This document shows positions 2,959 to 64,000 of a DNA stretch of 64,000 nucleotides, one piece after another. A model generated the notes under the pieces. The model did no database searches. It was not told the DNA's origin and worked only from the letters and a program-made list of their open reading frames with translations. Where the stretch lies: the NCBI GenBank assembly GCA_037043015.1, contig CM073329.1, forward strand, positions 11,052,648-11,116,647, in the 5' to 3' direction. Both the position numbers and the translations under genes were made by a program. The number at the start of each line of letters is the position of its first letter. Within the stretch, counting starts at the first letter, position 1. The DNA comes from Bryum argenteum (Eukaryota > Streptophyta > Bryopsida > Bryales > Bryaceae).

Positions 2959-3025
2959 TCTTGCATTGTTCTTGGCCGGACACTCGGTGAGGCATCTTTG
3001 AGTAGCTGTCACCTGAATTGCTTAA

Positions 3026-3386
3026 CCCTTAAATGCCCAAGGTGACCCGAAGGGTCACCTTCCAACAGAATCTTCTCTATGGCTCTCACTGTAACAACTT
3101 TTCACTTATATTTTGATGTCAAACTGGTCACCTTCTTGTGATGCATTCAAAAAATGAAATTTTACAATTCAAATCACAATTTGTATGAGTGATTTTGTGC
3201 TTTGAAAGGATTGTAGTAGCGAGGTTGGGGTTGTACATAAGCTTGTAGGAGGTTGCAAGCTCATCATTGATTGGTGCATTCACGATGCACTTGTTCAAAA
3301 AGTGCACTATTCATGATGCCCAAGTCCAAAAGATGCTGTGATCCAATTTTGGGCTGCCCGTTTCACACCCCATGGGCGTTTAAGGG
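3026..3386 (+). mobile_element. TTAA-flanked MITE family K, copy 1
   Basis: 361-bp non-coding element flanked on both sides by TTAA (3022-3025, 3387-3390). Left end cccttaaatgcccaagg and right end catgggcgtttaaggg are imperfect inverted repeats. The interior is shared with copies at 28549, 29661(-), 32894(-), 33259, 33630 and 45912(-). A TTAA target with ends starting CCC is the signature of piggyBac-type transposition. Confidence 0.88.
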
Positions 3387-3506
3387 TTAATTCTTAACCT
3401 ATTGTAATACCTTCAAGATTCTACAATTCGACCTTTTGAATAATGCTTAGATTGAGTTTTATGAGGCTTGAAGTTATTTTTGATAGTCACTTACACTATA
3501 TGGAAT

Positions 3507-3690
3507 GGTGTCCAAAGTGAATGTTGATTGGAATGACATAAGAGATTTATGTCTAAAATGACATAAAATGACATAGAATTTTGTCATTCAAGATACAATT
3601 ATGTTTGAAATGACATATTTTTAATGTCAATTTGGACATAAATGTCTCATGTCATTTTAGACTGATTCTAGTCAACATCTTTGGACGGTG
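3507..3690. repeat. Long imperfect inverted repeat (hairpin MITE-like)
   Basis: The left arm (gtgtccaaagtgaatgttga and onward) is complementary over about 55 bp to the right arm ending catctttggacggtg. The middle is built of repeated atgacat/atgtcat words. Probably a short palindromic transposon remnant. No other copy seen in the window. Confidence 0.65.
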
Positions 3691-3731
3691 TTCCTACCAG
3701 TGTTGCGCAATTCTGCATCAGGGATCTTTAA

Positions 3732-4744
3732 CCCCTCAACGACCCCAATGTTGTTTTTTACATTTTGGATAAATGGCAAAAGCTTTGAAGAGTTACAACT
3801 TCTTTATCTCACGCCATTTCATAACGAAATCACTTGGGTTGAGTCCCAAATCAAGTTCAATGTGTGTGGTGAAAATTGTAGACCCATGCAATGAAGTATA
3901 AATAAATGACATGTATTTTAGTGATGACAACTTTTGGTTTTGGGTTTTCAAACATGGAGCATGTTTCATCATTGCAAGCCAAAAATGTGAAATTAGAGTA
4001 GTTTTTGATGAATTATTTTTACATAATCATGATGTTAAGATGAAATCAATTCTTACAATTTCTGAATCGGAAGACTTTTACTTCAAAATACTTTTGTGAT
4101 GAGATTTGCAATGATGTATGTACCATGAAAAAAATGGAAAACCGGATGATTTTGAGGAGCCTTATCTCCTTCTCTCCTTCATTCATTGTTGGATTTCAAC
4201 TTTGTTATTTAGGATGGATTCCAATTCGAGTCTAGTTTTGTGATAAAAAGCTCAACTAAATCAAGTGTTTTGAAGATAAGGTTTAGAATAGAGTGCAAAG
4301 GGTCTAGTTTTGGACTCATCTCCCTTCATAAATTTTTTGGTAGTTTTCACCATTGCAAGCCTATAATCCGAGCCTAGATATTTATTTTATTTTTACTTTT
4401 ATTTTTTATTTTTTGATGAATCATATTTGTACAAAAGTGCTCTTAAATGAAGCAGATTATATTTCTTGTTGGTGAATTTCATTGTGCAGTAGGTTATCAA
4501 GTAGCATTTTCACTTCAAAGTGAAAATGCTAATACTTTGTAAATTTTTTTTAGTACTAATATGTTACAGCCTCACAATCTATGAAAGCCTCATGACTCCA
4601 AATTTCATATAGAGTACCAAGATTGTACGAGATTCATTACATGATTGTACCGTTGGGATCTAAATAGCTCACCTTTATTTTATCTTAGGCACTTTGAGAA
4701 AACTTCTGTTTCTAAGCTTGAGATCCCCCTTACGCATTTAAGTG
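3732..4744 (-). mobile_element. TTAA-flanked element family I, copy 1
   Basis: About 1 kb, flanked by TTAA (3728-3731 and 4745-4748). Starts cccctcaacgacccc; the other end, acgcatttaagtg before TTAA, is a diverged version of the family terminus. The interior matches in inverted orientation the elements at 17587 and 56689 (shared words such as ttttcacttcaaagtgaaaa and ggattccaattcgagtctag). Short frames inside are not protein genes. Confidence 0.75.
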
Positions 4745-4748
4745 TTAA

Positions 4749-7638: not shown

Positions 7639-8065
7639 CCCCTAAACGCCCAAGGGGGGGTAAAGCTCCTAACAATTGGTAATAATGCTGATTTTTTCAA
7701 AACTGCGTAAAAACAAATCAAAGATGAAAATGGAAAATCCAACCGTAGGATCTTCTTTAGAGCATGGCAATTAGTATGACCACCAAGTTGCATGCCATTT
7801 GGAGGTATGGATTTCAAGATCCATGCAAAAAAGGGGTGAAGATCACACCACCAAAACTTTCATGAAAAATCTCTTTCGCCCACTCTCACAAATTGAGGAT
7901 CAAGGTTTTTACTATTTATCCAAGGAGGGAGTAGAGTAAACCCACCGAGGAGTTGAGCAAAAAAAACGGCGGATGAAAAATCGATGGGATGAAAGCGGGG
8001 TTGTGCACCAAAGACGGAGCCTCACATCCAAAATGTCGAAAAACGACACCGTGGGCGCTTAAGGG
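7639..8065 (+). mobile_element. TTAA-flanked MITE nested in the Tc1 element
   Basis: 427 bp between TTAA at 7635-7638 and 8066-8069. Ends cccctaaacgcccaag and gtgggcgcttaaggg are inverted repeats of the TTAA superfamily. The interior differs from family K, and near its right end it has aaatgtcgaaaaacgacac, also seen at the family I right end. It inserted after the Tc1 copy. Confidence 0.88.
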
Positions 8066-8468
8066 TTAATATATGAGTTTGATTTCCTTAGCCTAGAATA
8101 TGAATGAATGGAAACTATGAAAATACTTTAGAGCCACATAGAGGAGAATTTTACCCACATAGTATGCATCTTTGTAATACCAAGAATGTAAACAATGATA
8201 TATCCTATAGATTGGTGCAATCAAATTTTAAAAAATCATCATATATATTTCTCAGTTAATTTTTTTTGAAATTAAGTGAAAAAGATAAAATAATTCATCA
8301 AAAATAGAGATTTTGTTTTTTAACATTGACATTTTATGAACACGTGAAGGGTCCATAACACAAAAGATTTAATAGGATAAATTTGATAAAATCCTCCCAT
8401 TTTGAAAATGAATTAGAGAATTTCAAGAGTTCACAAAATGGTTGCAAGACTTGTTGGAGGGTACTGTA

Positions 8469-9404
8469 CAGTGGGGTACAGAAATAATTCGAACTGAATT
8501 TGAAGGCAGTTTTTGAAAAAACTTCGAAATGTGCCTACATACTCAAAAATGATCGGAATTGCAATCCGTAAAGGGCGTTGGAACCACGTCAGAGTGTTTT
8601 ACACTATCATGGCAAAAAATTGCTTCTTTTTTGTGCAATTGTTCAAAGAACTAAAACTCTACATGTTCCATCCACAATTGACCACTGTCGCTTTGTGCTT
8701 TAATTACAATGTTCATTTTCACTTGCAAAATTGATATGAGTGCCATAAGTTGTTCTTTAGATACTTGAGCTCATTGTTGAATGTTCAAAAATACTTGCTC
8801 CCTCTAAACTTTTGAGTTGGTGTAGTTTTGTGATAAATTTCCAATCAACACTTAAGATGTGAAATTGAACTTTGATTTAAACTCGGCGAGAATGCTAAAA
8901 GAATTTGAGTTTGGCAATGAGCTTATGAAAGTAAGCACCCTAACTTTATCAAACCATCCTTTAAGTCCTTGTAGGAAATTTCTAGTGGTGTGAATGGCTT
9001 CACAAAGCTTTGAGAAAAATTGACTAGTCACAAGCACATTCTAAGACATTCCTCCTACCCAAGAAACAAACAAGGAACATATCAATGATTCAATAAGCAT
9101 GAGCTCAAGTATCTAAAGAACAACTTATGGCACTCATATCAATTTTGCAAGTGAAAATGAACATTGTAATTGAAGCACAAAGCGACAGTGGTCAATTGTG
9201 GATGGAACATGTAGAGTTTTAGTTCTTTGAACAATTGCACAAAAAAGAAGCAATTTTTTGCCATGATAGTGTAAAACACTCTGACGTGGTTCCAACGCCC
9301 TTTACGGATTGCAATTCCGATCATTTTTGAGTATGTAGGCACATTTCGAAGTTTTTTCAAAAACTGCCTTCAAATTCAGTTTGAATTATTTCTGTACCCC
9401 ACTG
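8469..9404. mobile_element. Foldback element with 306-bp inverted arms and Tc1/mariner-type ends
   Basis: Left arm 8469-8774 and right arm 9099-9404 are complementary over 306 bp with about two mismatches seen; the spacer is 324 bp. Ends read cagtggggtacagaaataat, flanked by TA on both sides (8467-8468, 9405-9406), as in Tc1/mariner elements. Both arms carry the same 73-codon open frame, which is a palindrome consequence and not a gene. No transposase. Confidence 0.93.
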
Positions 9405-9729
9405 TACAACAGAAACTCAATTGAGGGGTAAGAGCATTCAAGAGCCAAAAGTTGGCTTTTTTGTCTCCAGGATAGAAGGGGGCCCATACTCTATACGCAG
9501 GAATGTTATGGGCATGTTTGGGGAGTCCAAACCCATAGGTCCATGAGAAACAATTAAAAAGGGAGCTTTTGGATCATAACAAAAGTTGTGAGTAATAATT
9601 TTAAGCAAACTGGAACTTTCAAAATATTGATCTTCACTTTTGTTACGTCATTTTGCAAAGGGTGACGCATATTTTGCAAAGGGTGACGCATATTAAGCTG
9701 ACGCCCATTAGTGGCCCATCCTATGCAGG

Positions 9730-28548: not shown

Positions 28549-28909
28549 CCCTTAAACGCCCAAGCAAGCCCGAGGGGCATGACTCCAACAGAATCTTCCA
28601 TGTAGCTCTCACTGTACTCAACATTTCACTTATATTTTGATGTCAAACTGGTGACCTTCTTCTGATGCATTCAAAAAGTGAATTTTCACAATTCAAATCA
28701 CAATTTATATGAATGATTTAGTGCTTTGAAAGGATTGTGGTAGGTAGGTTGGGGTTGTACAATACTTGTAGGAGGTTGCAAGCTCATCATTGATTGGATC
28801 ATTCATGATGCCCAAGTTCAAAAACTGCACTATTCATGATGCCCGAGTCCACAAGATGCTGTGATCCAATACTGGGCTGCCCAAATCTGTATAGCCTGAC
28901 GTTTAAAGG
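28549..28909 (+). mobile_element. TTAA-flanked MITE family K, copy 2
   Basis: Flanked by TTAA at 28545-28548 and 28910-28913. Ends cccttaaacgcccaagc and ctgacgtttaaagg. The interior is collinear with copy 1, including the ttgtaggaggttgcaagctc block. Confidence 0.88.
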
Positions 28910-29660: not shown

Positions 29661-30020
29661 CCCTTAAAGGTCCTTCCACTCCTCAATGGGTAGCCCGAAA
29701 TTGGATCTCAGCATCTTTTGGACTTGGGCAACATGAATAGTGCACTTTTTGAACTTGGGTATCATGAATGACCCAATCAATGATGAGTTTGCAACCTCCT
29801 ACAAGGTTTTGTGCAATCTCAACCTACCTACCACAATCCTTTCAAAGCACAAATCACTCATACAAATTGCGATTTGAATTGTAGGATTTTACTTTGTAGA
29901 TGCATCACAAAAGGGTGACCAGAATGATATAAAAAAATAAGTGAAAATTTGAGAATCAAAAGAGCTACAGGCAAGATTCTGTTGGAAAACAGCCCAAGGG
30001 GCTGACATGCACCTTTAAGG
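29661..30020 (-). mobile_element. TTAA-flanked MITE family K, copy 3
   Basis: TTAA at 29657-29660 and 30021-30024. Inverted relative to copy 1; contains gagtttgcaacctcctacaa. Ends cccttaaaggtccttcc and tgcacctttaagg. Confidence 0.87.
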
Positions 30021-30173: not shown

Positions 30174-30731
30174 CCCCTAACTTTCCTTGGTGTTTTTTGG
30201 GAGCTTGAAACCTCAAAACTCCAATTATCTACTTCTATGCACTCATGGGATGTGAACAAATTTGTTTTCCTTTTTTAAAACTTACAACCGTAAGATCTTG
30301 TACCTAAGACAATTTTTAGTTGTTGTTCCGAAAATTGACGGTTGGATGTTTACCGTTTGAGAGATCGTAACATCCAAAGTTTGTCTTCTAAGTTTTTCTG
30401 GGCATTGCAAAGATTGGTTTTGAAAATTGGTAAGCTTTTTGACTTGGATCACTTTGAAATTTGAGTAGTGATTTAGTAATTGACATATTTCCAAAAAAAA
30501 TTAATTCAAAAAATTTACTTTTTTAAGCTGCCCTTTTTCAACTTGAAAACTAAAATTTCTAAATGAAGGTTTTTAAAAGTGGAATATGACTTTGAAATTT
30601 TTTACCACATACACTTTGCAGATTTAGGAGCACCCAATAAAAATCTTAGGCAAAAATATTACTCTTACCTACTTCATCTAGGCTGCCCTAAAGTGCAACA
30701 ACTTGTTTCGAGCTTCAAGGAAAGTTAATGG
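30174..30731 (+). mobile_element. TTAA-flanked element family G, copy 1
   Basis: TTAA at 30170-30173 and 30732-30735. Left end cccctaactttccttgg, right end caaggaaagttaatgg: inverted repeats. The interior shares a gggcagcyyt/agggctgccc-type block and a gacttggatcactttgaaat block (inverted) with 34574-35502 and 5826-5965. Confidence 0.78.
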
Positions 30732-32893: not shown

Positions 32894-33254
32894 CCCTTGA
32901 AGGTCCTTCCACTCCTCAATGGGCAGCCCAAAATTGAATCTCAACATCTTTTGGACTTGGGCAACATGAATAGTGCACTTTTTGAACTTGGGCACCATGA
33001 ATGAACCAATCAATTATGAGTTTGCAATCTCCTACAAGGTTTTGTACAATCTCAACCCACCTACCACAATCCTTTCAAAGCACAAATCACTCATACAGAT
33101 TGCGATTTGAATTGTTGGATTTCACTTTGTAGATGCATCACAAAAAGGTGACCAAAATGATATAAAAAAGTAAGTGAAAAATTGAGAATCAAAAGAGCCA
33201 CAAGCAAGATTCTATTGGAAAACAGCCCGAGGGGCTAACATGCGCCTTTAAGGG
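32894..33254 (-). mobile_element. TTAA-flanked MITE family K, copy 4
   Basis: Bounded by TTAA at 32890-32893 and 33255-33258, with an extra ttaaccc unit on the left. Collinear with copy 3. Its right TTAA is also the left TTAA of copy 5. Confidence 0.87.
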
Positions 33255-33258
33255 TTAA

Positions 33259-33625
33259 CCCTTAAACGCCCAACGAAGCCCAAGGGGCTTTTTTTCTCAA
33301 CATAATCTGCTCTGTAGCTCTCACTCTACTCAACTTTTCACTTATATTTTGATGTCAAACTGGTCACCTTCTTCTGATGCATTCAAAAAGTGAAATTTCA
33401 CAATCCAAATCACAATTTGTACGAATGATTTTGTGCTTTGAAAGGATTGTGGTAGGTAGGTTGGGGTGGTACATAAGCTTGTAGGAGGTTGCAAGCTCAT
33501 CATTGATTGGATCATTCACAAATGCCCAAGTTCAAAAAGTGCACTATTCATGATGCCCAAGTCCAAAACGGATGCTCTGATCCAATTTTGGGCTGCCCAT
33601 TTCAGACCCCATGGGCGTTTAAGGG
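33259..33625 (+). mobile_element. TTAA-flanked MITE family K, copy 5
   Basis: Ends cccttaaacgcccaacg and catgggcgtttaaggg, flanked by TTAA (33255-33258, 33626-33629). Directly abuts copies 4 and 6. Confidence 0.9.
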
Positions 33626-33629
33626 TTAA

Positions 33630-33900
33630 CCGTCAAACGCCCAAGGAAGCTAGAGGGACTTTTTTACGAACGTAATCTCCTTTGTAGCTCCCAATGTACT
33701 CAACTTTTCACTTATATTTTGATGTCAAACTCGTCACCTTCAAAAAGTGAAATTTTAGAACTCATATTAGAATTTGTATAATTGTTTTTTGTGGTTTGAA
33801 AGGATTGTGGTAGATGGGGTTGGGGTTGTACATAACCTTTGTAGAAGGTTGCAAGCTTGTCATTGATTGGTTCATTCATGATGCCCAACTTCAAAACGTC
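33630..33900 (+). mobile_element. TTAA-superfamily MITE family K, copy 6, 3' truncated
   Basis: The left end ccgtcaaacgcccaagg follows the shared TTAA. Homology to copy 5 is lost near 33900 and no right terminus is seen. An internal deletion removes the tgatgcattc block. Confidence 0.8.
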
Positions 33901-34573: not shown

Positions 34574-35502
34574 CCCCTAAAGATCCACGGCCACCAAAGT
34601 GGAGGTTTCCTATTTCGGGCAGCCTAGATGAAGGGGTTAAAAGTAAATTTTTTTTCTAAATTTTTACTGGGTGCCCCTTACACCGCAAAGTGCATGTGGT
34701 AAAATTTCCAAATCCAAATTCCAATTTTAGAACCTTCATCTAGAAATTTTAGGTTTGAAGTCCAAAAAGGGCAGTTTAAATTTAGTCTTTTTTTGAATTT
34801 TTTTTTTGGAAATATGTTCATGAACAATTCAGTACTTGAGTTCCAAAGTGACCCAAGTCAAAAAGTTTGTCAATTTCAGAAGGGCAGCCCTCAAAAATTA
34901 CAAAAACAATCTTAACAGTTTCTAGTAATTTCTGAATTAACTCTTACAAAATTTGTCAAAATTCAAGGTTTTGGAATTTTCCTTTTTTTTTTTTTTTTTT
35001 CACAAATTTTACAAACTCATAAAGGCACCTACTCGCCGTTGGGATCTTTAATTAAGCCAAATATATCGTATGAAATGCATGTTTTACTATATCATTGTTT
35101 TTAGACCTTCTTTTACGAAATAATTTGCATGAAGGTCACAAAAATGGAATGAGTTTCCAAAATTTTGCATGAGCGTACCCAACCTGATTACCCATGGGAA
35201 TTATGGGAATTATGTTTGGGGTAACAATCTTCAATTTTCTCTTTGCTCCATGGAAACAATGTCTCACAAGCAATGCCCTAAAAAACTTTTGCACCAACTT
35301 TGAATGTTACGATCTCACAAATGATAAAGATCCAATGATTGAAATTTCACATGGTAGTAGTGATAGTAGGTAGGTTTGAGATCTTACGGTTGAAAGTACA
35401 GATAAACAATAAAAAATTTGACCATGTCTCAATTCGAACAAGGTGGTAGAAAATCGCAGTTTTTGGTTTTAGAAGTCCAAAAAACGCTTGGATTTTTAGG
35501 GG
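34574..35502 (+). mobile_element. TTAA-flanked element family G, copy 2
   Basis: 929 bp, TTAA at 34570-34573 and 35503-35506. Left end cccctaaagatccacgg, right end gcttggatttttagggg. Contains caaagtgacccaagtcaaaa, shared with 30174 (inverted) and 5826. Non-coding. Confidence 0.82.
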
Positions 35503-37642: not shown

Positions 37643-38309
37643 AACGCGCCCATTTTTGGGGATATGAGCAAGCAATATCTGTACTTGTGACAGTTACTTG
37701 AGTCATGCACGACTATATGTGTCCTCCTATACAGCAAATTGTGCATCAAATAGTTGTACAACTAAACAATAAAGATTTGCACATACCCATACTTTGCATA
37801 TATTTTGGGTTGCTTTGGTAACCTTGATGAACTCACTTGTACAAATCTCAAAAGAAATACAAAATATGGATTTTTGTGAAACAAAACTCATCACAAGATC
37901 AAGATCTAATAAATTTTGGCATTTAAATATCGATGCTTTGAACGTAAGATTATTCCCTTATTCTTTATGTAAGTTTCTTGCCCTCATTCTTAACTCTTAA
38001 AGGAGTAGCTCTACAATGACCTCTAAGACGGCCATGTCTGAAATTAGTGAACATAATCCTTATAAATTCAATTTTAACAAATTCAAGAGTGAGATCTTGT
38101 TTATTACTCTCTAACTGGGACACCTACCAATTTTTATTAGATTTCACTGTACAAATTTTGAGTTGTATTTAGTCAAAGTTTCGGTTTTTGCAAAAACAAC
38201 GTATCTTTTTTAAAGCAAATCGATCACAATGTGGTCAATTTCAACTTTAGGGGTAAAAAATAAAGTTGTGAGCAAATATACGAAACACAGTTATGTATAC
38301 AATGTTCTT
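37643..38309. other. Intergenic, no gene seen
   Basis: AT-rich, nothing supported. Confidence 0.45.
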
Positions 38310-44513: not shown

Positions 44514-47500
44514 ATGGAGTGCTTGTTCGGATTCGTAGGAAATGGCTTTGTAATTGTGACTGCAGACACGGGCGCCAATCAGAGTATTGTGGTGCAGAAG
44601 ACAACCGAGGACAAGATTACTTGCTTGGATTCGCACAAGCTTCTTGGTTGCATCGGTGAGAGTGGCGATCGGTACGAAACATAATTAGGGTTTCATCCTG
44701 TCCACTTTGTTTCCCACCTTTGCTGTACAGTCCACCCTCTCTAAATGTTAAAATTCTTACAACATCTATAGTGAGTTAATATTGTAACAATTATGAAGAG
44801 AGTTTTTCGAATGCTTAACCCTTAATTGACATCACTGTTTTGAGAAAAATGTGACCTCACTGTCCTTTGACCATATTTTAGCATAAATAATTAAATAGAT
44901 TCGAAAATTGGAAACGGTGAGTGTCGAGCTGACTTGATTCTGTAAATAATTTTTTAAAAAAAACGCCCACATCGGGTAAAATCTTGAAATTTGCCACCGT
45001 TGAGAGTATGGAAGTTTTTGTTGAGATTCGAGGACCAATTTGGTCCCCTGTGTCAATAAAGGGTTAACAAATATAAATTCATTACAACTATTGAGGGAGA
45101 GGTTTGCAGAATAGATTAGCTTCAAACCACATTTTGAGTCCTGAAAGACAGTCCTCTCACGATTGGTTGGTGTTTGGAACACAATTTGTTGTTCTTGGAT
45201 TGATAGTAGGGAGAAACTAGAAAACCATTACATTTTGTCAAGAAATCTTCTTCCTTACCTACATAAACTTTCTTAAATATTACTCCCTTTGTCCCATTGT
45301 CCCATTTTAACTGTCGAGTAGGTTCTCTCAATTCTACCTTCAGAGATAGATTGGAGAGAACATGTTGGACAGAGGGAGTACACCATATCTTAGTGTACCC
45401 ATGAGAGAAAGAGAACCGTAGGCTCTAGTTGAAGTTAGTGTCCCTTCAACCTACTTCGGGTGATAGCATAAGAATAGCTAACCATTTTTCGCAATTGGTG
45501 TATAGGATCACTACCCCTCGGAGGGCGGACACTATAAAACCAAAACTAGAAACCAATATACTATACACCAATTGCGAAAAATATGAAGTTGGTGTGTTAG
45601 TTTTGTTAGTCGACACCGATCGTGCTTATGTACCTAATACTTGTAAGCAAATCTTCTAAATTGGGGTCGAGTGGTGCTCCAATTCGCACTTGGATTTAGG
45701 GTTTTAGGATTGGATGAGGTTGGTAATAAGTGGGGAGCTTGCAGGGTGCAGTTTTCGAACTTCATACAGAAGAACTTGAATTTGTACAACTTTAAGAATG
45801 GCATTCCCTTGACAACGTTGGCTGCTGCCAGCTTCACCCGCTGCGAGCTCGCCACAGCTCTCAGAAAGGTAATGGTACCATTCTGGCACATTTAGAGTCC
45901 ATGATATACGACCCATGCATAATGTTAACCCTTCAACGCCCATGCATAATGTTAACCCTTAAACGCCCATGCATAATGTTAACCCTTAAACGCCCATGGG
46001 TTCTGAAATGGGCAGCCCAAAATTGGATCACAACATCTTCTGGACTTAAGTATTATGAATAGTGCAGTTTTTGAACTCGGGTATCATGAATGAACCAATC
46101 AATGATGAGCTTGCAACCTCCTACAAGGTTGTGTACAATCCCAACCTACCTACCACAATCCTTTTACTCATACAAATTGTGATTTGAATTCTAAAATTTC
46201 ACTTTTTGAATGCATCATAAGAAGGTGACCACTTTGACATGAGAATGCTAAGCACAGCGAAAGCTACAAAGCAGAGCAGATTCTGTTGGAATGCTCGTGT
46301 ACAAAGTCTGGGTATCACAGTTTTAGGGGTAATCAATTGCAACAAAACTGATTTCAGAGGATAAACTGATTCTTGAGATTTTTGAGATCTCCTGAATGAG
46401 CTCTTCATGTGGACTCCTGCAAAGAATCATGTGTGGGCATGCTTTCTTTGCGTGGAAACACATGCTTGGGGTGGGTTTAGTGTTGGAGGGGGACGTACTA
46501 TATTTACATCTTTCAGATTTTGTATAGTGGGTGAGACCTTATGTAAAGGGAGAGGCCTCGGCAGGAGGGTCCGACCGTCACAAGAGACCCGTCTACCGAG
46601 GCCTCTCCCGGCGTAAGGCCCATGATGCGCGGGCACGGGCAGCTAATTCCCTGTGAGATATCCTCACCCGGGAATTCCCGCGGGAGGTCACCTCCCAAAA
46701 ATAAATTCCAGTTGGTAGGGCCTATTGCAGAGGGAGGAACCGTCCAAGTGAATGGCGTCAAAGCATCAACGGGCTTTACGTATGGGGGGTTTGACTGCTA
46801 CTTAAATTTCTTTACAATAATCTACCCTAGAGTTCATGATGTCGATTTCAGATTGTTATATCAATCTCCTCCTATTCTAATTTTACATACTATTAAAAAC
46901 AAGTGTAAAAGGATTTGAATGCACCAAAGTGCATGTGGTTTGAAAATTGTATGTAATATTTACTAAAAGTTTAAAACTTAAAACTTATGAAAAGTTCAAT
47001 ATTTTTGGGTTATTCAGATATGATAACTAACTATATATATATATATAACTATATATATATATATATATTAAATAACTTATTTCTAATAGGGTTAGAAACT
47101 GGATTAGGTAGTCACATGTGTTTACCTTAGTTGATATTGCTTCATAACAAACTTGAAAAAAATTATTACCTTAAAGAAGTGTACATTAACGTCTGCACAT
47201 ATATTAAATATAAAACTATACCAAATAGAAAGGACCAAATGTTTGATTTTGTGGATTGCACATGTAGGCCTCTTACCAAGTGAATATAATGTTGGCTAAC
47301 AAAAAGGACTAAATGTTTGCTATCGTGGGTTGCACATGCAGGCGCCTTACCAAGTGAATATAATGTTGGCTGGTTATGACAAACACACCGGCCCAACTCT
47401 TTATTACTTGGACTATGTTGCTACTTTGCAAAAGCTAGACAAAGGAGCCCTAGGTTTTGGTGAGTTGTAATAGTCATAAATATCAAATAAAAACTTAATT

Positions 47501-51560: not shown

Positions 51561-51918
51561 CAGGGTTGTCAAATCGGTCGACATTCGGGGTAAACCTAGT
51601 CCGCGGACGTAGTCCGGACTATGTCGACCGGGACCATAGTCCGGACCATGGTCCGGGGGTAAATGGGAGTTACCCGGTCCTGGTAACTTTGGGGCCGTTG
51701 GATCATCCACCTGGCCACATCTCGGCCGTCAAAATTTGATCCCGGTCTGGGCGACCGGCCTCCCGGTCGCTCCGTCGGATCGGACGACGGCCGACGAGTA
51801 GTAGATCATGGCCGTCGGATCAATTCCGTGCGCTGCGGGCCGTTGGATCGGGCCGTCGTCCGCATGCCCGACGGCCGTCGGATTTCGGGCGCGCCGGCCG
51901 ATCGGGGTCGGGCGGCCG

Positions 51919-52075
51919 TTGCCATGGCGGTCGGGGGTCGGGTGGCCGTCGCCGAAGTGGCGGTCGGGGGTCGGGTGGCCGTCGCCATGGCGGTCCGGGA
52001 GTCGGGCTGGCCGTCGCCATGGCGGTCCGGGAGTCGGGCTGGCCGTCGCCGTGGCGGTCGGGGTCGGACGGGCGG
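51919..52075. repeat. GC-rich tandem array, left subterminal
   Basis: About five units of 30-33 bp of the form gccatggcggtcsgggagtc + gggctggccgtc. Open frames here on both strands are compositional artefacts. Confidence 0.85.
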
Positions 52076-52739
52076 TCGGCAAGGCCGTCGGATCGGTCGT
52101 AGTCGATCCGACCGCATGCGATGGCTCTTTAAACTTCAAATGCCCATAACTTCGTCAAACATTATCTGAATTACTTATTTAAGATGTTTTTTGACATCTG
52201 CAAAACATGTAGATGCCAAAAAACATCTTAAATGCACAATTTGGATTAGTTTTGACAAAGTTATAGGCCTTCAAAGGCCGTTCAACCTTCAAAGGCCTAT
52301 AACTTTGTCAAAACGTATCCAAATTGGACGTTTAAGATGTTTTTTGGCATGTACATGTTCTGTAGATGTCAAAAAACATCTTAAATGTTCGATTCGGATA
52401 AGTTTTGACTAAGTTAGGGGCATTTCAAGTTTCTGCAGGCAGTCACATCGGCCGCCGACCGATTTGCCGACCGATCCAACGACCGCCGACCGATCCTACG
52501 GCCCACACCCGGTCGGCCTCTAGCACTCCCCTCTCTCCCTCTCCCCTCTCTCACTCACAAGCCCTTCCTCTCCTCTTCTTCCTCTCCTTCAACGCATTTA
52601 TGAACTTTCTATTTTGGGGATCAGACATTAAATTCTTTGCCTAATTCAAGGCATGGACCCACGTGCCATATTCTTTGAGGAATGTTAAGAAGATTTCATT
52701 GTAATCTATGAGAATGTTTTATTTGAATAATCATATGGC
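52013..52739 (+). repeat. Arm 1 of internal 0.74-kb inverted repeat
   Basis: Inverted copy at 54822-55573. Includes the palindromic core (52131-52444), a gtcgg-rich block, a (ctctccc)n stretch and an AT-rich end. Mostly the same with several small indels; the spacer is about 2.1 kb. Confidence 0.88.
52131..52444. repeat. Palindromic core, copy 1
   Basis: Nested palindrome: outer cataacttcgtcaaac with complement; inner two hairpins around taagatgttttttgacatct and agatgccaaaaaacatctta; centre tataggccttcaaaggccg with its complement. Copies at 55146-55458 (inverted) and 57929-58242. Confidence 0.9.
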
Positions 52740-52979
52740 CTTGGAGATATATGAAAGGTTGAAATTTGGCATGTGACCTTAAGATCCTACGGTTGAGTCT
52801 TCTATATAATGCTTGAATTGAGGCTTTTTAGGCCTCAAGTAGAAGAATATTATTGTGGAGAATATAGGCAATTTTGCATCAAGGATCTTTAGGAATTAAA
52901 GTCTCTCTATTTGAACTAAGACATAAACTAGACTCAAGCCACTTTTGCTAATTTCTCAATAATTCACATACTCTAATAA

Positions 52980-53239
52980 CCCCTAAAGATCCAAGAAAGC
53001 CGAAATGGCTTTTTGGGATTTCCATGAGGGAAAAATTCAGCCAACTTTGACCATTATAATCTCAAAATTGGAGAAATATCAATGGTTCAAATTCGACATT
53101 CGAGTAAAGGGTCAAGTTAACTTCAAGATCCTACGGTTGGATCTTCTTATTAATCCTTAGATTGAGTTTCTTTGGGCCTGAACTAGAAGAAGGTTCTTCT
53201 TGATAATTTAGACAATTTTGTATCAAGGATCTTTAGGGG
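52980..53239 (+). mobile_element. TTAA-superfamily MITE family H, copy 1, with ATAA flanks
   Basis: Ends cccctaaagatccaag and ggatctttagggg are inverted repeats. The 4-bp flanks are ATAA on both sides (52976-52979, 53240-53243) rather than TTAA. The left 70 bp match the element at 63930. Confidence 0.8.
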
Positions 53240-54821
53240 ATAATGAAGATCAATAAGATGTTACTTACTATTTAACGCATATTATAGTTTTACAATTGTA
53301 AAAAGAAAATATAAAGATCTTTACATTTTGTGTATTTAAAATTACCTTTTCTTTCCTTTTGTCCAAAGAAGGAATTTTAGGAACATGCCTCATATTCAAA
53401 TTCAACCCGGGGGGCATTTAGTATTTGAGTGTAAGTTTTTAAAGTCCTTTGACAAAAATGCTTAATATTATAGGGGTCGAACAAGATGAATAGAAAGTAT
53501 CTAATTGAGGCTAAGAAGAGGCTTCTACAAAGAATATTCTTATTCAATACAAATTTGATCGCCATATCAATCAATTGAAGTTAATATTATCCAATTGCGT
53601 ATTAAAATAACATATGAGTCTACAACTATAGGAACAAGTATACTAATATTCCAATGCTATATATTATAAAACTAGTAGTTTTTTGAAATTTTATTTGGCT
53701 TGGTTAAAATTATTATTATTTATTATCATGGAATAATAGAAAATAGAAACAAATTCTTATTTGCTTTGTATAAGTCATTTAAAAAGTATTCTAATTATAA
53801 TGTGAAGAGAAATCATACTAGAGAAGATAAAAAATTATTATGTACGCAATATAAATAGAAAACCTTACACTTAGATAAAACTCAAGTTTAATCATAATCC
53901 AAGAATGCTAACAAAAATATATTATAAAAAATTATAGGGTACATGATGTCATTAATAAAGTAATGTAGGATTAGAATTTTATATGAAAGAATATTACAAG
54001 GTGCAATATATTGAACGTTTAAAATATAATCCGTAAGTTTATCTTGTCAAATATTTCCAATATACATGTAAATTATGTCAAAATGGAGTTTCTTGTAATA
54101 ACAAGAATTGATAAAATAAAAACTCAAAAATAGATCATTTTATACATAAACAAAAAATAACATAGGCCATAAATGTGGAAAAGAATCATTCTTGTGTGGA
54201 ACTTATGAACATTGACCAAAAACGATAAATGCATAGTCTAAGTTTACACATTGCCACTATGTAACTTGTTATATATATATAGGAAAGTCTTATAGAAATG
54301 TAATCTTTGAATCCTATTAGGCACTCGAAAAACAAATATTAGCATATACTAGTTTATAAACATGTCTATTGAATTTGGGTTATACGAATTTACATTGGAA
54401 GTTTTATTTTATATATCTATTTATTTCACACAATTGTATGAATGCTATTAGCCTTCCAATTTAGTGCATGCTTAAATTTATTCCATACGTTTCATAGAAT
54501 TTACTTCAAGTTGCTAATGAAAGGTGAAGTAACATAATTTTGGAATACTACAATTTTTCTTCACCAATACATGTTCACTCCAACCCTTAAAAAAAGAATG
54601 ACCCATTACGAGGTAGACAAAAGATGGTTAAATTTGTAAAAAAATAAAGACCACATTCTTTTTCATTATCATATGTCAATATGAAGAAATTGCAAATTCT
54701 ATGAAAACATGTGGACATTTTACTCGTTGAGCATGTCGAATGGTTCATGAATAGTGAAAACTAAAATTCATATGAACAAAGTGGACCTATACATAAAAAG
54801 TTATATTTTTCATATCCAAGC
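53240..54821. other. AT-rich interior of the hAT-like element
   Basis: Very AT-rich; no frame above 65 codons and no transposase motif recognised. It is the spacer between the inverted arms. Confidence 0.6.
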
Positions 54822-55573
54822 CCATAAGATTATTCAAATAAAACATTCTCATAGATTACAATAAAATCTTCTTGACATTCCCCAAAGAATATGGCACGTG
54901 GGTCCATGCCTTGAATTAGGCTGAGAATATGATGTCAGGTCCTCGAAATAGAAAGTTCTTAAATACATTGAAGAGGAGGAATACATTGAAGAAGAGGAGA
55001 GGAAGGGCTCGTGAGTGAGAGAGGGGAGAGGGAGAGAGGGGAGAGGGAGAGAGGGGAGTGCTAGAGGCCGACCGGGTGTGGGCCGTAGGATCGGTCGGCG
55101 GTCGTTGGATCGGTCGGCAAATCGGTCGGCGGTCGATCTGACTGCCTGCAGAAACTTGAAATGCCCCTAACTTAGTCAAAACTTATCCGAATCGAACATT
55201 TAAGATGTTTTTTGACATCTACAGAACATGTACATGCCAAAAAACATCTTAAACGTCCAATTTGGATACGTTTTGACAAAGTTATAGGCCTTTGAAGGTT
55301 GAACGGCCTTTGAAGGCCTATAACTTTGTCAAAACTAATCCAAATTGTGCATTTAAGATGTTTTTTGGCATCTACATGTTTTGCAGATGTCAAAAAACAT
55401 CTTAAATACGCAATTCGGGTAATGTTTGACGAAGTTATGGGCATTTGAAGTTTAAAGAGCCACTGCATGCAGTCAGATCGACTACCGACCGATCCGACGG
55501 CCTTGCCGACCGCCGGTCCGACCCCCGACCGCCACGGCGACGGCCAGCCCGACTCCCGGACCGCCATGGCGAC
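54822..55573 (-). repeat. Arm 2 of internal inverted repeat
   Basis: Complement of 52013-52739 with the palindromic core at 55146-55458. The right boundary at the gtcgccatgg unit is sharp against AT-rich sequence. Confidence 0.88.
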
Positions 55574-56684
55574 TAAATGGATACTTTAACATACATATGT
55601 GGATAATATACATTCTATTTTACTTTTGAGAAAGTTGGAAGTTAATGCAATCTAATAATTGTAATAAATTGTCAAATTGTCCAATAGGCACAAACATTTA
55701 CTGGAACGTGGTTTACGTAGTCTATAATCTATAAAAAACCCAAAATACTATGTGGTCTACGTATGAGAGATGGAGGTGATTTAGTAATTACGACTTGTGT
55801 GAATAAGGTACAAAAGGGCATTAGTCACATTAGTCACAACCTACAAAAAATTAAATAGAATTGTGTCAGGGTCCTTCTTGACATAGATGAGGAAGAAGAG
55901 GAGAAAATCCAGCCAAGATAGCAAATTAGATTTGTTTAATTCCTACTCTATCCCTACCTTGTGTTTTAATTTCTATCTACCAACGCTAGTATTTTAAATC
56001 TTGTCCGGCAACCTCAACTTCTAATTTTGATTTATTGCCTTTCAATTTTAATTAACATGTAACCCTCCTATATAATGTAAATTTGTATGCTATTTTACTT
56101 AAAACTTTAATTTCAAAAGTTTGTCTTCTTGCCTTAATTATCTTCTTAAATTCCCAATTTATTTAATTTTTTGAATTTGCAAGTATCTTCCTATTAAATA
56201 TTAATGTTTTTTCTTTCCTTTGTAATTTACATCTACCGCCCCCTTCCCCCAAATTTCATTCCTTTGTTTCACTCTAACAGCTTAATTTCGCACCACTCTC
56301 CAAAAACTAAAATTAAAAACTCAAAAATGAAACTATTAAGTTCAATAGTTTATATGTATACCCATAAGTATACCCCTGAACCCCTAAAGGAGAGTTTGAC
56401 CCGAATCGGGTCGATTTGCTTGAAAAAGATATGATGTTTTTTACAAAAACTGAAACTTTGACTCAATATATCTCAAGATCCGTACAGTGAAATCTAATAA
56501 AAATTGATGGGTAGACTAATTCAACCGTTATGAACAAGATCCTACGGTTGGATTTTCCAAAATCAAATTCAAAAAAATTTGTTCGCAGATTTGAGATATG
56601 GCCGTCTTGGAGGTCACTCTAGAGCTTCTCCTTTAGGGATATGGTCCTTCTTGCAAGAGAATCTTTCGGACATTCTTTTGACTA
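55574..56684. other. AT-rich interior of the hAT-like element, right part
   Basis: No gene or repeat recognised. Confidence 0.5.
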
Positions 56685-56688
56685 TTAA

Positions 56689-57660
56689 CCCCTAAACGCG
56701 CCAGCCTATTTTTAGCAGAAAAGCACATTTCCATAGAAATCCTCATAGATGAAAATCAAGAGAAGCTATTAAGATCTCAACCGTACAAACTTGTAATAGA
56801 CTTATCCAAGATCATGTGGACCAAAACTTGAGTCATGAGGCCTTATAGATCGGAAGATCATAACATATTAATACTAAAAACAAACTGCAAAATTTCATCA
56901 TTTTCACTTTGAGGTGGAAATGCTACCAATATACCTATTGCAATGAAAAAATTACCAACTAGAGAGATGTTCACCTTCATCTTAATAAGTCCTTTACCCA
57001 ACAAAAATTCATCAAAAAAATTTCTTGGCTCAAATAAAAGCCATGCAATGGTAAAAGCGCCAAAAATTTTACAAAGGAAAAATAGTCCAAACCTAGACCC
57101 TTTGCATTCAATTTCATGCCTTATCTTCAAAACACCTTCGATCTTGTTAAGGTTTCTACCACTTAGACTAGACTCTAATTGGAGGCCATCCCAAAAATTA
57201 AGTTGAAATCCAACGGTGGATGAAGGAGATATAGCTCCTCAAATATCATCCATTTTCTCACTTTTTCTCATTGACAAAACATCATTGCAAATCCAATAGC
57301 AAAATCATTTGGATCAAAAAACTTCACACTACAAAGTTGTTAAGAATCACCTTAAGATCATGACCATGAAAAAAAAAAATCATGAAAACTATTTTTAATT
57401 TCACATAATTGGCTTGCAATGGTAATACATGCCCCATGCTTGAAAACCCAAAAGCAAGCGCTGTCTTCACTAAAGTGCATTCCATTAATTCATACTTTAT
57501 TGTATGGGCTTGCAAATTTTACAACGCAAACTAGACTTGATTTGGAACCTAACCCAAGTGATTTCATCCAAAACGGACCTCGGATGAAGAAGATATGGCT
57601 ATTCAAAGTTGCTGCCTTCCATCCAAAATGTCGTTTTTCGACATTCGGCGCGTTTAGGGG
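56689..57660 (+). mobile_element. TTAA-flanked element family I, copy 3, best preserved
   Basis: 972 bp, TTAA at 56685-56688 and 57661-57664. Ends cccctaaacgcgcc and ggcgcgtttagggg are 14-bp perfect inverted repeats. Nested inside the hAT-like element. Short frames inside are non-coding. Confidence 0.92.
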
Positions 57661-57769
57661 TTAATACAAGTATCAGAAATTTCCCAATTAGGCCTATATA
57701 TGTTAGATTGTACGTCCTAAAACAGTAAGTCTCAACGATCCTTTCATTTGTCACAAAAGTCAAGCATTT

Positions 57770-58250
57770 GGGAGGGGGAGGGAGGAAGGGAAGTTAGGAA
57801 GAGAAGGGGTGTTGAAAGAAGAAGGTTGGGTGGGCCGACCGGGTATGGCCGTCGAATCGGTCGCCGGCCGTTGAATCGGTCGGCACATCGGTCGGAGGCC
57901 GATCTGATTGCCTGCATTGGCTCTTCAAACTTCAAATGCCCATAACTTCGTCAAACATTACCCGAATTGCGTATTTAAGATGTTTTTTGACATCTGCAAA
58001 ACATGTAGATGCCAAAAAACATCTTAAATGCACAATTTGGATTAGTTTTGACAAAGTTATAGGCCTTCAAAGGCCGTTCAACCTTCAAAGGCCTATAACT
58101 TTGTCAAAACGTATCCAAATTGGACGTTTAAGATGTTTTTTGGCATGTACATGTTCTGTAGATGTCAAAAAACATCTTAAATGTTCGATTCGGATAAGTT
58201 TTGACTAAGTTAGGGGCATTTCAAGTTTCTGCAGGCAGTCAGATCGACCG
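57770..58250. repeat. Partial third copy of the arm sequence and palindromic core
   Basis: 57770-57925 resembles the purine-rich and gtcgg-rich part of arm 2; 57929-58242 is core copy 3, nearly the same as copy 1. Confidence 0.82.
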
Positions 58251-58262
58251 CCGACGGCAACG

Positions 58263-58425
58263 GCGGCCGACCTCGCCGGTCGCCAAAGCGGTCGGCGGCC
58301 GACCTCGCCGGTCGCCAAAGCGGTCGGCGGCCGACCTCGCCGGTCGCCAAAGCGGTCGGCGGCCGACCTCGCCGGTCATCACCCCGGTCGGCGGCCGACC
58401 TCGCCGGTCCGCACACCGGTCGGCC
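58263..58425. repeat. 32-bp GC-rich tandem array, right subterminal
   Basis: About five units of 32 bp (gcggccgacctcgccggtcg + ccaaagcggtcg), the last two varied. Frames of 75-104 codons here are low-complexity artefacts. Confidence 0.93.
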
Positions 58426-60198: not shown

Positions 60199-63100
60199 AG
60201 TCTTCATGACGTGGAAAGTGGAGCATTTAGACATCATGTGGCACTCACTGCGTTTAGCATAAGCATTGCAATTATCATATGGATATCGCGGCATTATGTA
60301 TTCACTCGTGAAGTAAAAGAAAATAAAATTGGCCTTGTGTTGCCACTTTTTTACCAAGAACAATTTTTGAATACTAGCTACAATAAAGAAGACCATGTGT
60401 GGTATGGAAGCAATTCTGTAGGACTTCGTAGAGAGCGTAAACTCAATTACGTGTCTCCAGCGTTTTTACTTCGGTAAGTGAGCTTTGTTGTGATTATGAA
60501 CCTTGGAACTTGTATTAGAATTTGTGGTGGAGGAAAGAAAGTGATTATTGTGTAGGGTAGTTTCTTTTTTTTCTTTTTTTTCAGTTCAATTGTTGGTTCC
60601 AAAAATAGATGGCCTTTAAATGTGTGTGGAAGTGGAAACAAAAGTTTATCTCTTTCTCTTGCTAGATGAAGAAGGATAAATGTACTATGTGTTTGAAGAA
60701 GCATAATTTGGGTGACATTAGCATGCTTCTATAACCAAAAGAGAGCGCATCTTGTTTTAACACAATTTAATTGTGCTTTGAGACAAAAATCTTCACTGGT
60801 GTAGGAACCAAGTGTTAAGACTACGTTATACTGCGTTAAATGACTACAATGTCTTTAAAGCTCTGATCAAATCCTTTATCAGAACATTAGAAACTTAATA
60901 AACAAGTACTTTGTCAACGTTAGAAATAAAAAAGGTATAACATCTTTTATTTTTCTTCTTTTTCTAAGAGCTTTCTAGTTCAAACCTTCTTCCTCGTTTG
61001 GACATTTTTATGTATGAACCTCTATTACTTGAATGTATTACAGAGAATTTGGGCTTGGTGTATTCTACGTCAAAATGAGAATGGGGCATCCTCTTAGGGA
61101 GTTCTTCTTTCATGTTGACACTGGAAGTACAACCTCATGGCTTTATTGCAATATTCCAAACTACGACTTGAAGCATGATAATTTGGTGAGTGTGTTGTTT
61201 TTACAAGTCAAGTACTTCTTTGAAATGTCATACAAGTAAATTATGTTATAAATAATAGATATAGTCATATCATTTGAAGCTATTGGTCCTAAATGAACAA
61301 AATCATGACAATTGATACTTATTTCACTAAATACAATAACAGTAATAATCACATATGACTAGCTTAGTTGTATGCCATCATCTTTCTTCAATTTGTCTGA
61401 ATCATATGATGACATTTTAAAAGAAGTAAAACCTAACTTGAAAACACTAGAGTCAACACCAAACTTGACTTGTTTGGATCAAGATGCAAACATTAATAAT
61501 TTTTTTGGCACTCAATGATTGACTTTGCCATTAGACTATGTTATTGATCATTATATAGAATAATTAAATCACTTGTCTAAAAGATTGCCTATGACCATGA
61601 TTTTAGCTAATTTTGGATTCTTAAAATATGCAATACAAAACTATCTCGACACAAACTTATGCTCTTGATAAATATGATTGCTGTACTAAATATATTGTGA
61701 TTTAACCTCTATACTTCAATTGGACAAACTATAAGTAATTTCATAGTTACAACAAGTTTTGTGCATGTAGGGACTTAATGGGTTATTGGAGCATTTCAAT
61801 TATTACATAGTGGATTGCAAAGATGATGCATGTATTAGACTGGAACGTGACCGTATCTACCCTTGTTATCCAGGCAACCATTGCAGATTGTATGTTACAT
61901 ATTGTGACAAGACCTCGTATTATGGTCCCTACGTATATACTGAATTCATAGTGCAAAGGCACGATGGAAATGAACAAAAGTTATTGGGCAATATTGGGTA
62001 TGAAATATCTTTATCATGTATATTTTGTTATTTCATTATCACCCCCTAAATGTTATGTTGTATTGATAGTTAAGTAACATTTTCTTCTTAAATTTCACAT
62101 ATACAAATGTCATTAATGTACTACAAAGATTGCACGCTTGAGATCTATATAGCTTACCTACATGACCTAGCTTACCTCTATGACACTTTTTATGAAAATT
62201 TGTTAATTGGCTACAAATAGGTTAGGACGCGTAGGGGATAAGATCATGTGGTTGAATTTACAAAATAACTATGGAATTGAGATTTATATAGTTTAGAATT
62301 AGAAAGAATCAAATTTGATACATAAGTAATTTCTGAACAAAAAAATGATAGTTAAGTAACAAAAGAGAATTTGGTTCACACTCTTGAGAGTGCATAAAGG
62401 TCAAACATTCTAGCTTTAAGGTTTCAAGCTCCAAAAATACACAAGATAATTAAGGGGTTAAAAAACTGAAGTTGGCACATTAATGCATTAACCTACCGAT
62501 TGTCATAGCTTGAAGTAAAATCAATGTTTTCAATTTAAGTAAACCATCTCAAAGATGTATAATGAGCAATATGTTTGATTTATTATATTTAGTAGTCTCA
62601 TTGTTATTGTTTTCTCTCATGTATCCATGCATCAAGAATGTCTCTATTTTATCAAAAAGTTCAAGCTAACAAATATGCCCTACTATATGAATCTTGTACA
62701 CTTTTGATGCTTGAGGACTCCAAATGTTCTTGTATGTGAATTAAGTGTCTTTCATTTTTCTCTAGATGTATAACTAAAGAATCAAGGGTGAGTTCCAAAT
62801 TTGATAAACTTCAAACAGATGGCGTCCTTGCTCTTGGTAATGGTGCCAACACTCTTGTTTATCAATGGGCGGCAACCCAAGTAATCGACAAGAATACAGT
62901 CGGTGTTTGTTTAGGGAAGACTCCAACAACAACTCAAACGTCACCGACGGGTTTCTTATTCATGGGAGAGACAGTAGAACGAATAGTTGAAAGAAGCTCT
63001 TCGCCTTGGATGAATGTGCACAACAAGTGCTTCTTTAACATATTACAACAAAAAATAATTACATTTTGAAATGTTGGAATAACTTGTAACATCTGATACG

Positions 63101-63903
63101 CATCATACAACTGTCAATAAGTAATCATTTCTCTAAATTATGAACATATTATAAGTCTTTCCATATAAGGCAATAAGGCATAACAATATTAAGTGTAATA
63201 TAATGTGTTTTGTAGAATCAAAGATGCTAGATGGAAACTACATCTAGTGGCTCTCTTATTTGAAAATACTAGAATTGTGCAAAGAGGAGGTTCAATAGTT
63301 GGTGAAGAAAAGATTGTTTTTGACACTGGAACCACATTCATATGGTTGGAAAAATCATTCCATGAGCAACTAATCAACATGGTGCATATCCATCCATTTC
63401 ACATTATACTCCTGTAAACTTGTCCATCAAATCACACTGTTTTGCAGAGTAGATGGTAGTACACTGGTACCTGGATAAGATCAACGTCTAGTTAAGAACG
63501 TTGTCCATGTCCCTTTATTATGCTAATCTGAGGCATTGATTCGTTATGGTCAACGCTTCAAGGATAAGATCAACGTTTTCGTCTGTCCGAAAACGTTTAT
63601 CTAATCCAAGCACCACTGTAGTATTGAGATGCATTGTGTCTACTAGAAGCACATACAATACTTGGAGATTTGTTATCCATAAATAGACAAATAGAATCTT
63701 TATAAATTTGAGATATACAAATGCATTTATTTGTATTTATGATATACATTTTCAAATTGGCTGATCATATAAATACGCGCAGGGTGCAGTTAACGTATTA
63801 TGCAGCCACTAAAGGGTACTACCTTGTGGATCTTTTAAGCGCAAAGAAAGATGAAGTTTGTTGGAATCATCCTGTAATGAGCACCAATCAAGCTTGTTTT
63901 TGA
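60199..63903 (+). CDS. Nepenthesin-like aspartic protease (A1B), multi-exon, both ends incomplete
   Basis: Secreted or vacuolar acid protease family with two catalytic Asp. Exons that splice in phase: 60199-60473, 61044-61185, 61771-61997, 62766-63026, 63216-63381 and 63790-about 63903. Landmarks: EFGLGVFYVKMRMGHP, then first active site FFHVDTGSTTSWLYC; Cys-rich DCKDDACIRL...CYPGNHCRLYVTYCD as in plant nepenthesin-like enzymes; DGVLALGNGANTLVYQW; GFLFMGE; and second active site IVFDTGTTFIWLEKSF. Exon 60199 begins after acceptor tgtag with no ATG in frame, so the start lies upstream; it has a hydrophobic stretch ALTAFSISIAIIIWI. The last frame ends at a TGA (63903) before the C-terminal GFA..C region. 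A donor (cct|gtaatg) precedes the stop, so the gene probably continues beyond the window. Introns are AT-rich, up to about 770 bp. Confidence 0.88.
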
Positions 63904-63929
63904 AACACATGAGTTTTCTTAATCTTTAA

Positions 63930-64000
63930 CCCCTAAAAGTCCAAGAAAGCGGAAATCGTTTTTTGGAATTTCCGCGGGGAGAAAATTTAGCCACTTTGAT
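63930..64000 (+). mobile_element. TTAA-superfamily MITE family H, copy 2, cut by window end
   Basis: TTAA at 63926-63929, then cccctaaaagtccaag, collinear with 52980-53050 (aaagcsgaaatsgyttttt, gaatttcc). Lies in the presumed last intron or 3' flank of the protease gene. Confidence 0.85.

Follow-up and report, generated by a model that had tools for sequence, protein, structure and literature searches.

Short TTAA-flanked elements in the Bryum argenteum genome appear to be driven by piggyBac-type transposons that keep the docking geometry of the insect element

What moves the short elements that begin with CCCYTAAA, end in its complement and are flanked by TTAA, in a stretch of 64,000 nucleotides of the Bryum argenteum genome (contig CM073329.1, positions 11,052,648 to 11,116,647; hereafter the window)? 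The ends of the piggyBac transposon of Trichoplusia ni start with CCC, and terminal inverted repeats (TIRs) starting with CCC or CCY are a hallmark of its superfamily, which is familiar above all from insects and bats; most work on piggyBac has been done in animals, and it is in wide use for genome engineering. An earlier reading of the window by its sequence alone (the original prediction) had proposed a radiation of piggyBac-like miniature inverted-repeat transposable elements (MITEs), dependent on a transposase encoded elsewhere. We have followed this up in the genome at large (258.8 Mb in 25 contigs, labeled C, with the window in C9; individual genome loci are labeled L). The elements of the window are, very probably, non-autonomous miniature members of the piggyBac superfamily, moved in trans by the transposases of autonomous relatives residing elsewhere. 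More broadly, thousands of short elements in this genome appear to be driven by piggyBac-type transposons, with the docking geometry of the insect element maintained, and the best reading is that several piggyBac systems run in parallel, each family of transposons being accompanied by many derivatives that are not autonomous.

The pattern used for all scans of ends, TTAACCCYTAAA, occurs exactly 15 times in the window (10 times on the plus and 5 times on the minus strand) versus 0.0 expected from 20 order-1 Markov sequences. Two of these ends are reiterations within a single 27-bp tandem array at 45912-45998. Ends with one mismatch number 17, versus 1.6 under the same null, and the 20 ends with two mismatches, versus 16.5 expected, are noise. 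The claim of at least 14 elements or fragments stands, as 12 of the 17 coordinates proposed are complete elements with matching 4-bp flanks, and five are one-ended or truncated (16057, flanked by TTGA; 17587, flanked by TTAG; 33630; 45912-45983; and 63930), the calls at 16057 and 17587 being based on weak ends. TTAA on both sides of intact elements, also proposed, is found in 11 of the 12 (Table 1), the remaining one, 52980-53239, having ATAA on both sides; the tip is mismatched in several, including 3732, 29661, 30174, 32894 and 44819. By BLAST, the elements group into families A (~361 bp, seven copies or fragments, 74-93% identical among themselves), B (260 bp), C (~970 bp), D (560-930 bp) and E (~260 bp), plus two singletons, 7639-8065 and 44819-45063. 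At least five kinds of interiors are thus present, as had been stated, but to call them unrelated was slightly too strong, since a few short matches are common to some of them. Two family A elements and an A fragment lie end to end, with junctions at 33254-33259 and 33625-33630, and at each junction a single TTAA serves both neighbors, as expected if an element inserts into the TTAA flanking another. One family A element has its left tip, TTAA included, reiterated in tandem at 45912-45998 (3.2 copies of a 27-bp unit), perhaps a product of aberrant transposition or slippage.

As to the genome, TTAACCCYTAAA is found 23,184 times (11,520 and 11,664 in the two orientations), versus 401 times (207 and 194) for the reversed pattern, and TTAA precedes 3,298 of the 3,694 CCCTTAAACGCCC ends. 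One informative comparison is presented by two long copies, on C3 (L066+L047+L067, 5.48 kb) and C4 (L054+L068, 5.44 kb), that align over 5,517 columns at 97.0% identity, the former flanked by TTAA/TTAA and the latter by TTAT/TTAT, a difference for which a 2- or 3-bp duplication fails unless extra matching changes occurred at the tips. Another is locus L024, where a family B-like element harbors a family A element: once the latter and one TTAA are removed, the flanks align, unbroken at the junction, to the B element of the window (74% overall). From the flank comparison and this one empty-site alignment, TTAA is target DNA, duplicated on insertion and residing outside the element. TTAA as part of the terminal repeat, an outcome that the original prediction had itself set against its reading, is rejected in view of the direct TTAT and ATAA flanks and the alignment of occupied and unoccupied sites at L024, and a TA or TWA target duplication is rejected in view of the direct flanks TTAT (the C4 copy) and ATAA (52980). 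The length difference between L041 and L049, considered as another empty site, is instead a separate insertion with CACTACAAG ends and a 3-bp TTT repeat (L041 289-1371, sense; 1.08 kb; empty site in L049), presumably a CACTA-type non-autonomous element, which it resembles.

The autonomous copy whose existence had been proposed was reached from a pair of family A ends that face each other across 5.2 kb. This element (L009 505-5695, 5,191 bp) is bounded on either side by TTAA-CCCTTAAACGCCC and contains one open frame of 897 aa, which matches PF13843 (DDE_Tnp_1_7) over the entire profile (1-349 of 349, E 1.4e-82), and whose sole matches in PDB at E 1e-3 are piggyBac (6x67, 2e-29) and piggyBat (9c0f, 7.7e-24). 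With such a transposase in a bounded element, with these structural relatives and with the TTAA duplication, the piggyBac identity is borne out; an autonomous partner of another superfamily, the other outcome set against it, did not turn up in a genome-wide search aimed at PF13843 only. L009, L044+L060 and the L047 copy all have CCCYTAAA tips at their two ends. In L009, a 21-bp tandem repeat at 883-1119 is located between the frame, on its 3' side, and the left end of the element.

The search of the genome with PF13843 resulted in 116 scored matches among 775 candidates, with matches in none of the 14 control genomes; for piggyBac relatives in the IMG/VR viral contigs, 14 pattern matches were obtained and none was confirmed. 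The best 30 of the 116 loci, read in detail, represent seven or eight lineages, judged by protein identity: I (9 loci), II (12), III (3, plus L035 at ~55%), IV (2) and the single loci L031, L055 and L057, with 31-46% identity between lineages. When these 30 frames were used in tblastn, the window had no match at E 1e-3 (the lowest value being E 0.14), with all 30 matching the control loci, which agrees with the earlier statement that the window encodes no transposase. The catalytic aspartates D572, D651 and D764 (L030 numbering) are invariant in 22 of 22 aligned frames, in motifs that align with 6x67, and a C-terminal Cys/His pattern, recognized by eye, is complete in 24 of the 30 frames, cut or altered in L029, L031 and L055, and absent from L042, L045 and L053, pointing to a predicted C-terminal cysteine-rich zinc-binding domain (CRD). 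An additional frame precedes the main one in L009, L044+L060 and L053+L059; it ends in a similar ...WWPD-GAEA-H stretch and is a probable upstream exon. The ratios of nonsynonymous to synonymous change (dN/dS), calculated for the catalytic domain in 15 pairs, are 0.07-0.15 in six pairs with dS of 0.298-1.58, 0.21-0.61 in seven close pairs and 1.3 in one pair with almost no change, with the pair L036/L043 saturated, indicative of purifying selection on the frames. Six lineage II domains, picked for equal search scores, differ by only 0-1 positions per 1,149 bp across five contigs. For L043, L053 and L055, 5' ends were not found in 3-kb extensions.

Partnership between the miniature families and these transposases is apparent from shared ends in A, B and D. 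In family A, the genome copies L012 and L013 match the L009 ends, in the same polarity, over 30-32 bp (91-93%) at one end and 38 columns (84-87%) at the other, and four of the seven window A copies match them at E 0.01 (81-91%, 32-38 columns). In family D, the last 223 bp of the element at 34574-35502 are 75.7% identical to the 3' end of the autonomous C3 and C4 copies. For family B, the first 100 of 1,057 left-end places were compared by eye with the 116 transposase places, and two left ends are located 2.9 kb upstream, on the 5' side, of a transposase domain (C3:9250501 with L046, and C5:9733980 with C5:9736886), the first 36 bp of both being identical (36/36) to the window element at 52980. 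These two fit better than L035, a candidate whose 3' match is a box of left-end type, probably from a neighboring element. A similar comparison by eye for family C, of ~100 of its 204 places with the 116 transposase places, revealed no overlap. Some family A copies are 99-100% identical on different contigs, which, along with the near-identical lineage II domains, suggests recent movement, and 12 of 16 other genome copies are less than 96% identical to L013. Two further loci were noted among these families. L010 505-1359 is a family A element equal to L013 except for a ~490-bp insertion with a 9-bp flanking repeat, CTCACTGTA, which is another mobile family, and at C7:11079758 and C7:11084318 two ends of the family C palindrome type are opposed 4.6 kb apart, which could be a composite or one element with a left end on both sides.

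What may set the families apart is a palindrome inside one of the two ends. Pairing was scored over seven base pairs around each possible center, in 74 element ends, of which one was duplicated, leaving 73 distinct. The center at bp 25.0 has the highest mean, 3.38 pairs (the next is 2.52), and at least 6 of 7 pairs are formed there in 16 of the 73 ends, versus at most 2 at any other center. With ends alike at 70% or more removed, the remaining 44 average 3.23 of 7 pairs at bp 25 versus 1.79 +/- 0.19 in 500 shuffles, none of which exceeded 2.57 at any center, and 10 of the 44 have at least 6 pairs, versus 2 at the next best center. The sequence of the arms differs by family: A has GACCC or AGCCC boxes, E has GACCC, B has AAAGCCGAAATGGCTTT, C has ATGTCGAAAAACGACAT, D has AAAACCGATTCGGTTTT and 44819 has GGACCAAATTGGTCC, and in 16 dereplicated palindrome ends only the pairs C21-G29 (14 of 16) and C22-G28 (12 of 16) are nearly constant. 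The palindrome is also one-sided. Among 31 elements with both ends at hand (including L083/L084, two opposed ends separated by 5.9 kb, which possibly belong to different elements), at least 5 pairs are present at exactly one end in 23, at both ends in one (44819) and at neither in seven. As some ends had been picked after palindromes had been seen, an unselected sample is of importance here: of the 14 opposed pairs closer than 1.4 kb among the first 100 places of the end pattern, 13 were taken (the other, L001, being already included), with the bp-25 palindrome present in 9 of these 13. The element at 29661-30020, standing outside these counts, has a tip one base short at its right end and 6 of 7 pairs there at bp 24. 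In L009, L044, L046 and the C5 copy, the palindrome end is 5' of the transposase gene. On the opposite, right-type ends, a second copy of the palindrome was detected in none of 24 elements at p < 0.05 (lowest 0.22), and inner matches to the box on the left end itself reach 9-12 of 19 at best, which does not surpass the shuffles that were generated for the opposite end. This palindrome at one end only, with its axis fixed at bp 25 and its arms varying by family, is the new element of this analysis.

In the T. ni piggyBac, according to the published structural account, a CRD dimer sits on a palindromic internal repeat at left-end bp 17-33, with the minor groove narrowed at about bp 25 (PMC7351741), and in piggyBat the CRDs are described as binding a palindrome that is unrelated in sequence and confined to the left end (PMC11707139), the first palindrome spanning, by arithmetic from the coordinates given there, about bp 19-32. 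The axis found here is the position of the zinc-finger dimer on the insect element, and CRD docking on it is putative. The Bryum elements resemble T. ni piggyBac (6x67) in the TTAA duplication, the DDD catalytic domain, the C-terminal CRD and a palindrome near bp 25. They differ in an open frame of ~900 aa versus a chain of 594 residues, with ~420 residues before the catalytic domain and a start codon that is not fixed; in the palindrome at one end, unlike T. ni piggyBac, reported to have 19-bp copies at both; and in the variation of the palindrome sequence by family inside one genome. With no second box on the opposite ends, the layout is nearer that of piggyBat (Myotis lucifugus, 9c0f), where the palindrome is likewise on the left end only, but the site of piggyBat is reported as repeated three times on that end, and no repeated box was detected here.

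By analogy with these two transposases, a mechanism may be envisaged. The transposase would come from autonomous relatives of 4.5-5.5 kb elsewhere in the genome, acting in trans. Its core would read the CCCYTAAA-NNNCC tip at both ends, as the piggyBac and piggyBat structures suggest, and a CRD dimer would dock on the left-end palindrome, with its axis at bp 25. Excision and insertion would proceed by the TTAA hairpin chemistry of piggyBac, and the miniature copies, in retaining both ends, could be mobilized. Specificity would probably be set by the CRD and its palindrome: as the sequence of the latter varies by family, it probably decides which transposase moves which family. Whether the parallel systems, having common tips, are kept separate by a bp-25 palindrome that has diverged along with the CRD zinc finger of each lineage is a question on which we are evenly divided.

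Other explanations need to be weighed. TTAA includes TA, TTA and TAA, so that a single copy cannot separate the duplication schemes, and the elements could be MITEs of Tc1/mariner type (2-bp TA duplication) or PIF/Harbinger type (3-bp TWA duplication), each moved by transposases of their own, with a terminal repeat that by chance starts with ACCC after TTA. We consider this exceedingly improbable, as the copies with TTAT/TTAT and ATAA/ATAA flanks need all four bases duplicated, unless tips changed in step, and the transposase enclosed is a PF13843 protein instead. Kolobok and Sola3 also duplicate TTAA and have their own transposases, and it could be these that move the miniature families, the piggyBac copies merely having the same tip; the families without a partner, and a genome-wide search aimed at PF13843 alone, would accommodate this. 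It is very unlikely, however, given that A, B and D have in common with the transposase-bearing elements subterminal sequence beyond the tips, and that partnered and unpartnered families have the same bp-25 axis. Trans-mobilization by piggyBac transposases would also be a matter of the past only, if all copies were relics, with the palindromes and ends as fossils. The divergence of the window copies (74-93% in A) and of most other genome A copies from L013 is in line with this, but the A copies at 99-100% identity on different contigs, the six near-identical transposase domains, the long open frames and the low dN/dS between lineages make it quite improbable. More room, if not much, is left for the palindrome as a by-product, such as an ancient motif, hairpin-forming or regulatory, that was carried along as the elements spread: foldback DNA can generate palindromes, and CRD binding is proposed here by analogy. 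That the arms vary by family while the axis is constant and equal to that of the solved piggyBac complex, and that 23 of the 24 elements having the palindrome have it at one end, render this explanation unlikely.

A number of observations weigh against movement in trans by piggyBac transposases docked at bp 25, or against parts of that reading. The empty-site counterpart of L024, which is the window's own B element, reads TTGA at the insertion point, and this is one aligned case. The partner in trans that was proposed for all the elements turned up for A, B and D, none being found for C, E, the 7639 type and the 44819 type, and even in family A the window copies 29661, 32894 and 33630 have no match to the L009 ends at E 0.01. 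Of the two stretches linking family B to a transposase, that on C3 was read through and that on C5 at its two sides only, and the single candidate tip for the 3' end of L046 is flanked by CTAG instead of TTAA. As to the transposases, 23 of the 116 PF13843 rows contain an internal stop, by eye, and no ends of the six-copy family were found within 6,249 bp at L069. The palindrome scores below 5 of 7 pairs at both ends of E30174, E3732, the D copy on C3, L070, L075, L081 and L082, and in the autonomous D copy a 9-bp core, CCGATTCGG, is alone retained.

The original prediction had also held that piggyBac is little described in land plants, and this needs tempering. Land plants are among the piggyBac-bearing groups in a survey table (PMC4438587), piggyBac is named among plant DNA transposon superfamilies (PMC10794571), 'plants' appear as piggyBac hosts, without detail, in the accessible text of other papers, and 1,230 piggyBac-class copies are counted in a repeat table for the fern Ceratopteris richardii (PMC6890710), likewise a non-seed land plant, under the same superfamily label and, in the accessible part of that source, as a count only, with no ends, transposase or MITE families. 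What stands is that no description covering the ends, transposase and MITEs of a plant piggyBac element was found in the open-licence literature, as far as its text is accessible, subscription papers being outside the search. Overall, the superfamily and its land-plant record are already known, and it is the scale and the diversity of palindromes around a fixed axis that are notable here. Tourist and Stowaway, plant MITEs with TIRs, are short, high-copy, non-autonomous and mobilized in trans; the elements described here are similarly short, high-copy and non-autonomous, with another target duplication and another transposase superfamily. If palindromes have indeed diverged with the CRDs, the families would be a natural library of CRD-palindrome pairs, of use for a recognition code and for piggyBac vectors that do not cross-react. 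With over 23,000 intact-tip ends, seven or eight transposase lineages among 30 loci and near-identical copies, the genome would be a rich source of plant-adapted systems, and a palindrome with a fixed axis and variable sequence offers a testable route to how piggyBac transposases tell their own elements apart. TTAA MITEs may, moreover, go unlabeled in plant annotation.

Table 1. Elements and fragments with CCCYTAAA-type ends in the window (flanks are given as left/right)
Feature	Coordinates	Remarks
Family A element, 361 bp	3026..3386	TTAA/TTAA; left-end palindrome
Family C element, 1013 bp	3732..4744	TTAA/TTAA, diverged tips; without bp-25 palindrome; 71% identical to 56689-57660 over 939 columns
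Singleton element, 427 bp	7639..8065	TTAA/TTAA; C-like palindrome, right end
Family A element, 361 bp	28549..28909	TTAA/TTAA; left-end palindrome
Family A element, 360 bp	29661..30020	TTAA/TTAA; right tip minus one base, palindrome there at bp 24
Family D-related element, 558 bp	30174..30731	TTAA/TTAA; without bp-25 palindrome
Family A element, 361 bp	32894..33254	TTAA/TTAA; TTAA 33255-33258 common with 33259..33625
Family A element, 367 bp	33259..33625	TTAA/TTAA; TTAA 33626-33629 common with 33630 fragment
Family A fragment	33630..33900 (end approximate)	Right end not found
Family D element, 929 bp	34574..35502	TTAA/TTAA; last 223 bp match 3' end of L047/L054 autonomous elements
Family E element or fragment	37994..38253	Flanks diverged
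Singleton element, 245 bp	44819..45063	TTAA/TTAA; right-end palindrome GGACCAAATTGGTCC at bp 25; left end also scores 5/7 pairs at bp 25
Family A fragment	45983..46246 (end approximate)	Left tip reiterated as 27-bp array 45912-45998
Family B element, 260 bp	52980..53239	Direct flanks ATAA/ATAA; first 36 bp equal to two transposase-linked ends
Family E element	56381..56640 (right coordinate approximate)	Left-end palindrome GACCCGAATCGGGTC; right end diverged
Family C element, 972 bp	56689..57660	TTAA/TTAA; right-end palindrome
Family D-related end only	62367..62457 (inner coordinate approximate)	TTAA CCCCTTAATTATC
Family B left end	63930..64000	Runs off window edge

Besides these elements, the window encodes formin, malectin-like receptor kinase, xyloglucan fucosyltransferase and DBR1 domains. 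The genome contains 90 matches to PF00504, with clusters of partial matches (positions ~31-161) at C5 8.16-8.41 Mb, C5 14.73-14.76 Mb and C2 25.06-25.09 Mb, which we take to be, possibly, an ELIP expansion as in desiccation-tolerant plants. These domains and the PF00504 matches point to a land plant; for one protein, from three of the 90 places examined, the top entries in PDB are 9vfj (543 bits), 8htu (466 bits) and 7xqp (464 bits), probably moss complexes, so that a moss-like affinity is a lead from this ranking. Large inverted repeats are present in the window at 52099-58270 (458 nt at 98% and 407 nt at 94%), with GC-rich 32-bp tandem arrays beside them (51902-52091, 55507-55573 and 58261-58424), and another inverted repeat, at 8465-9408, of 310 nt and 99% complementary, with a spacer of 324 nt, is perhaps a young foldback element.

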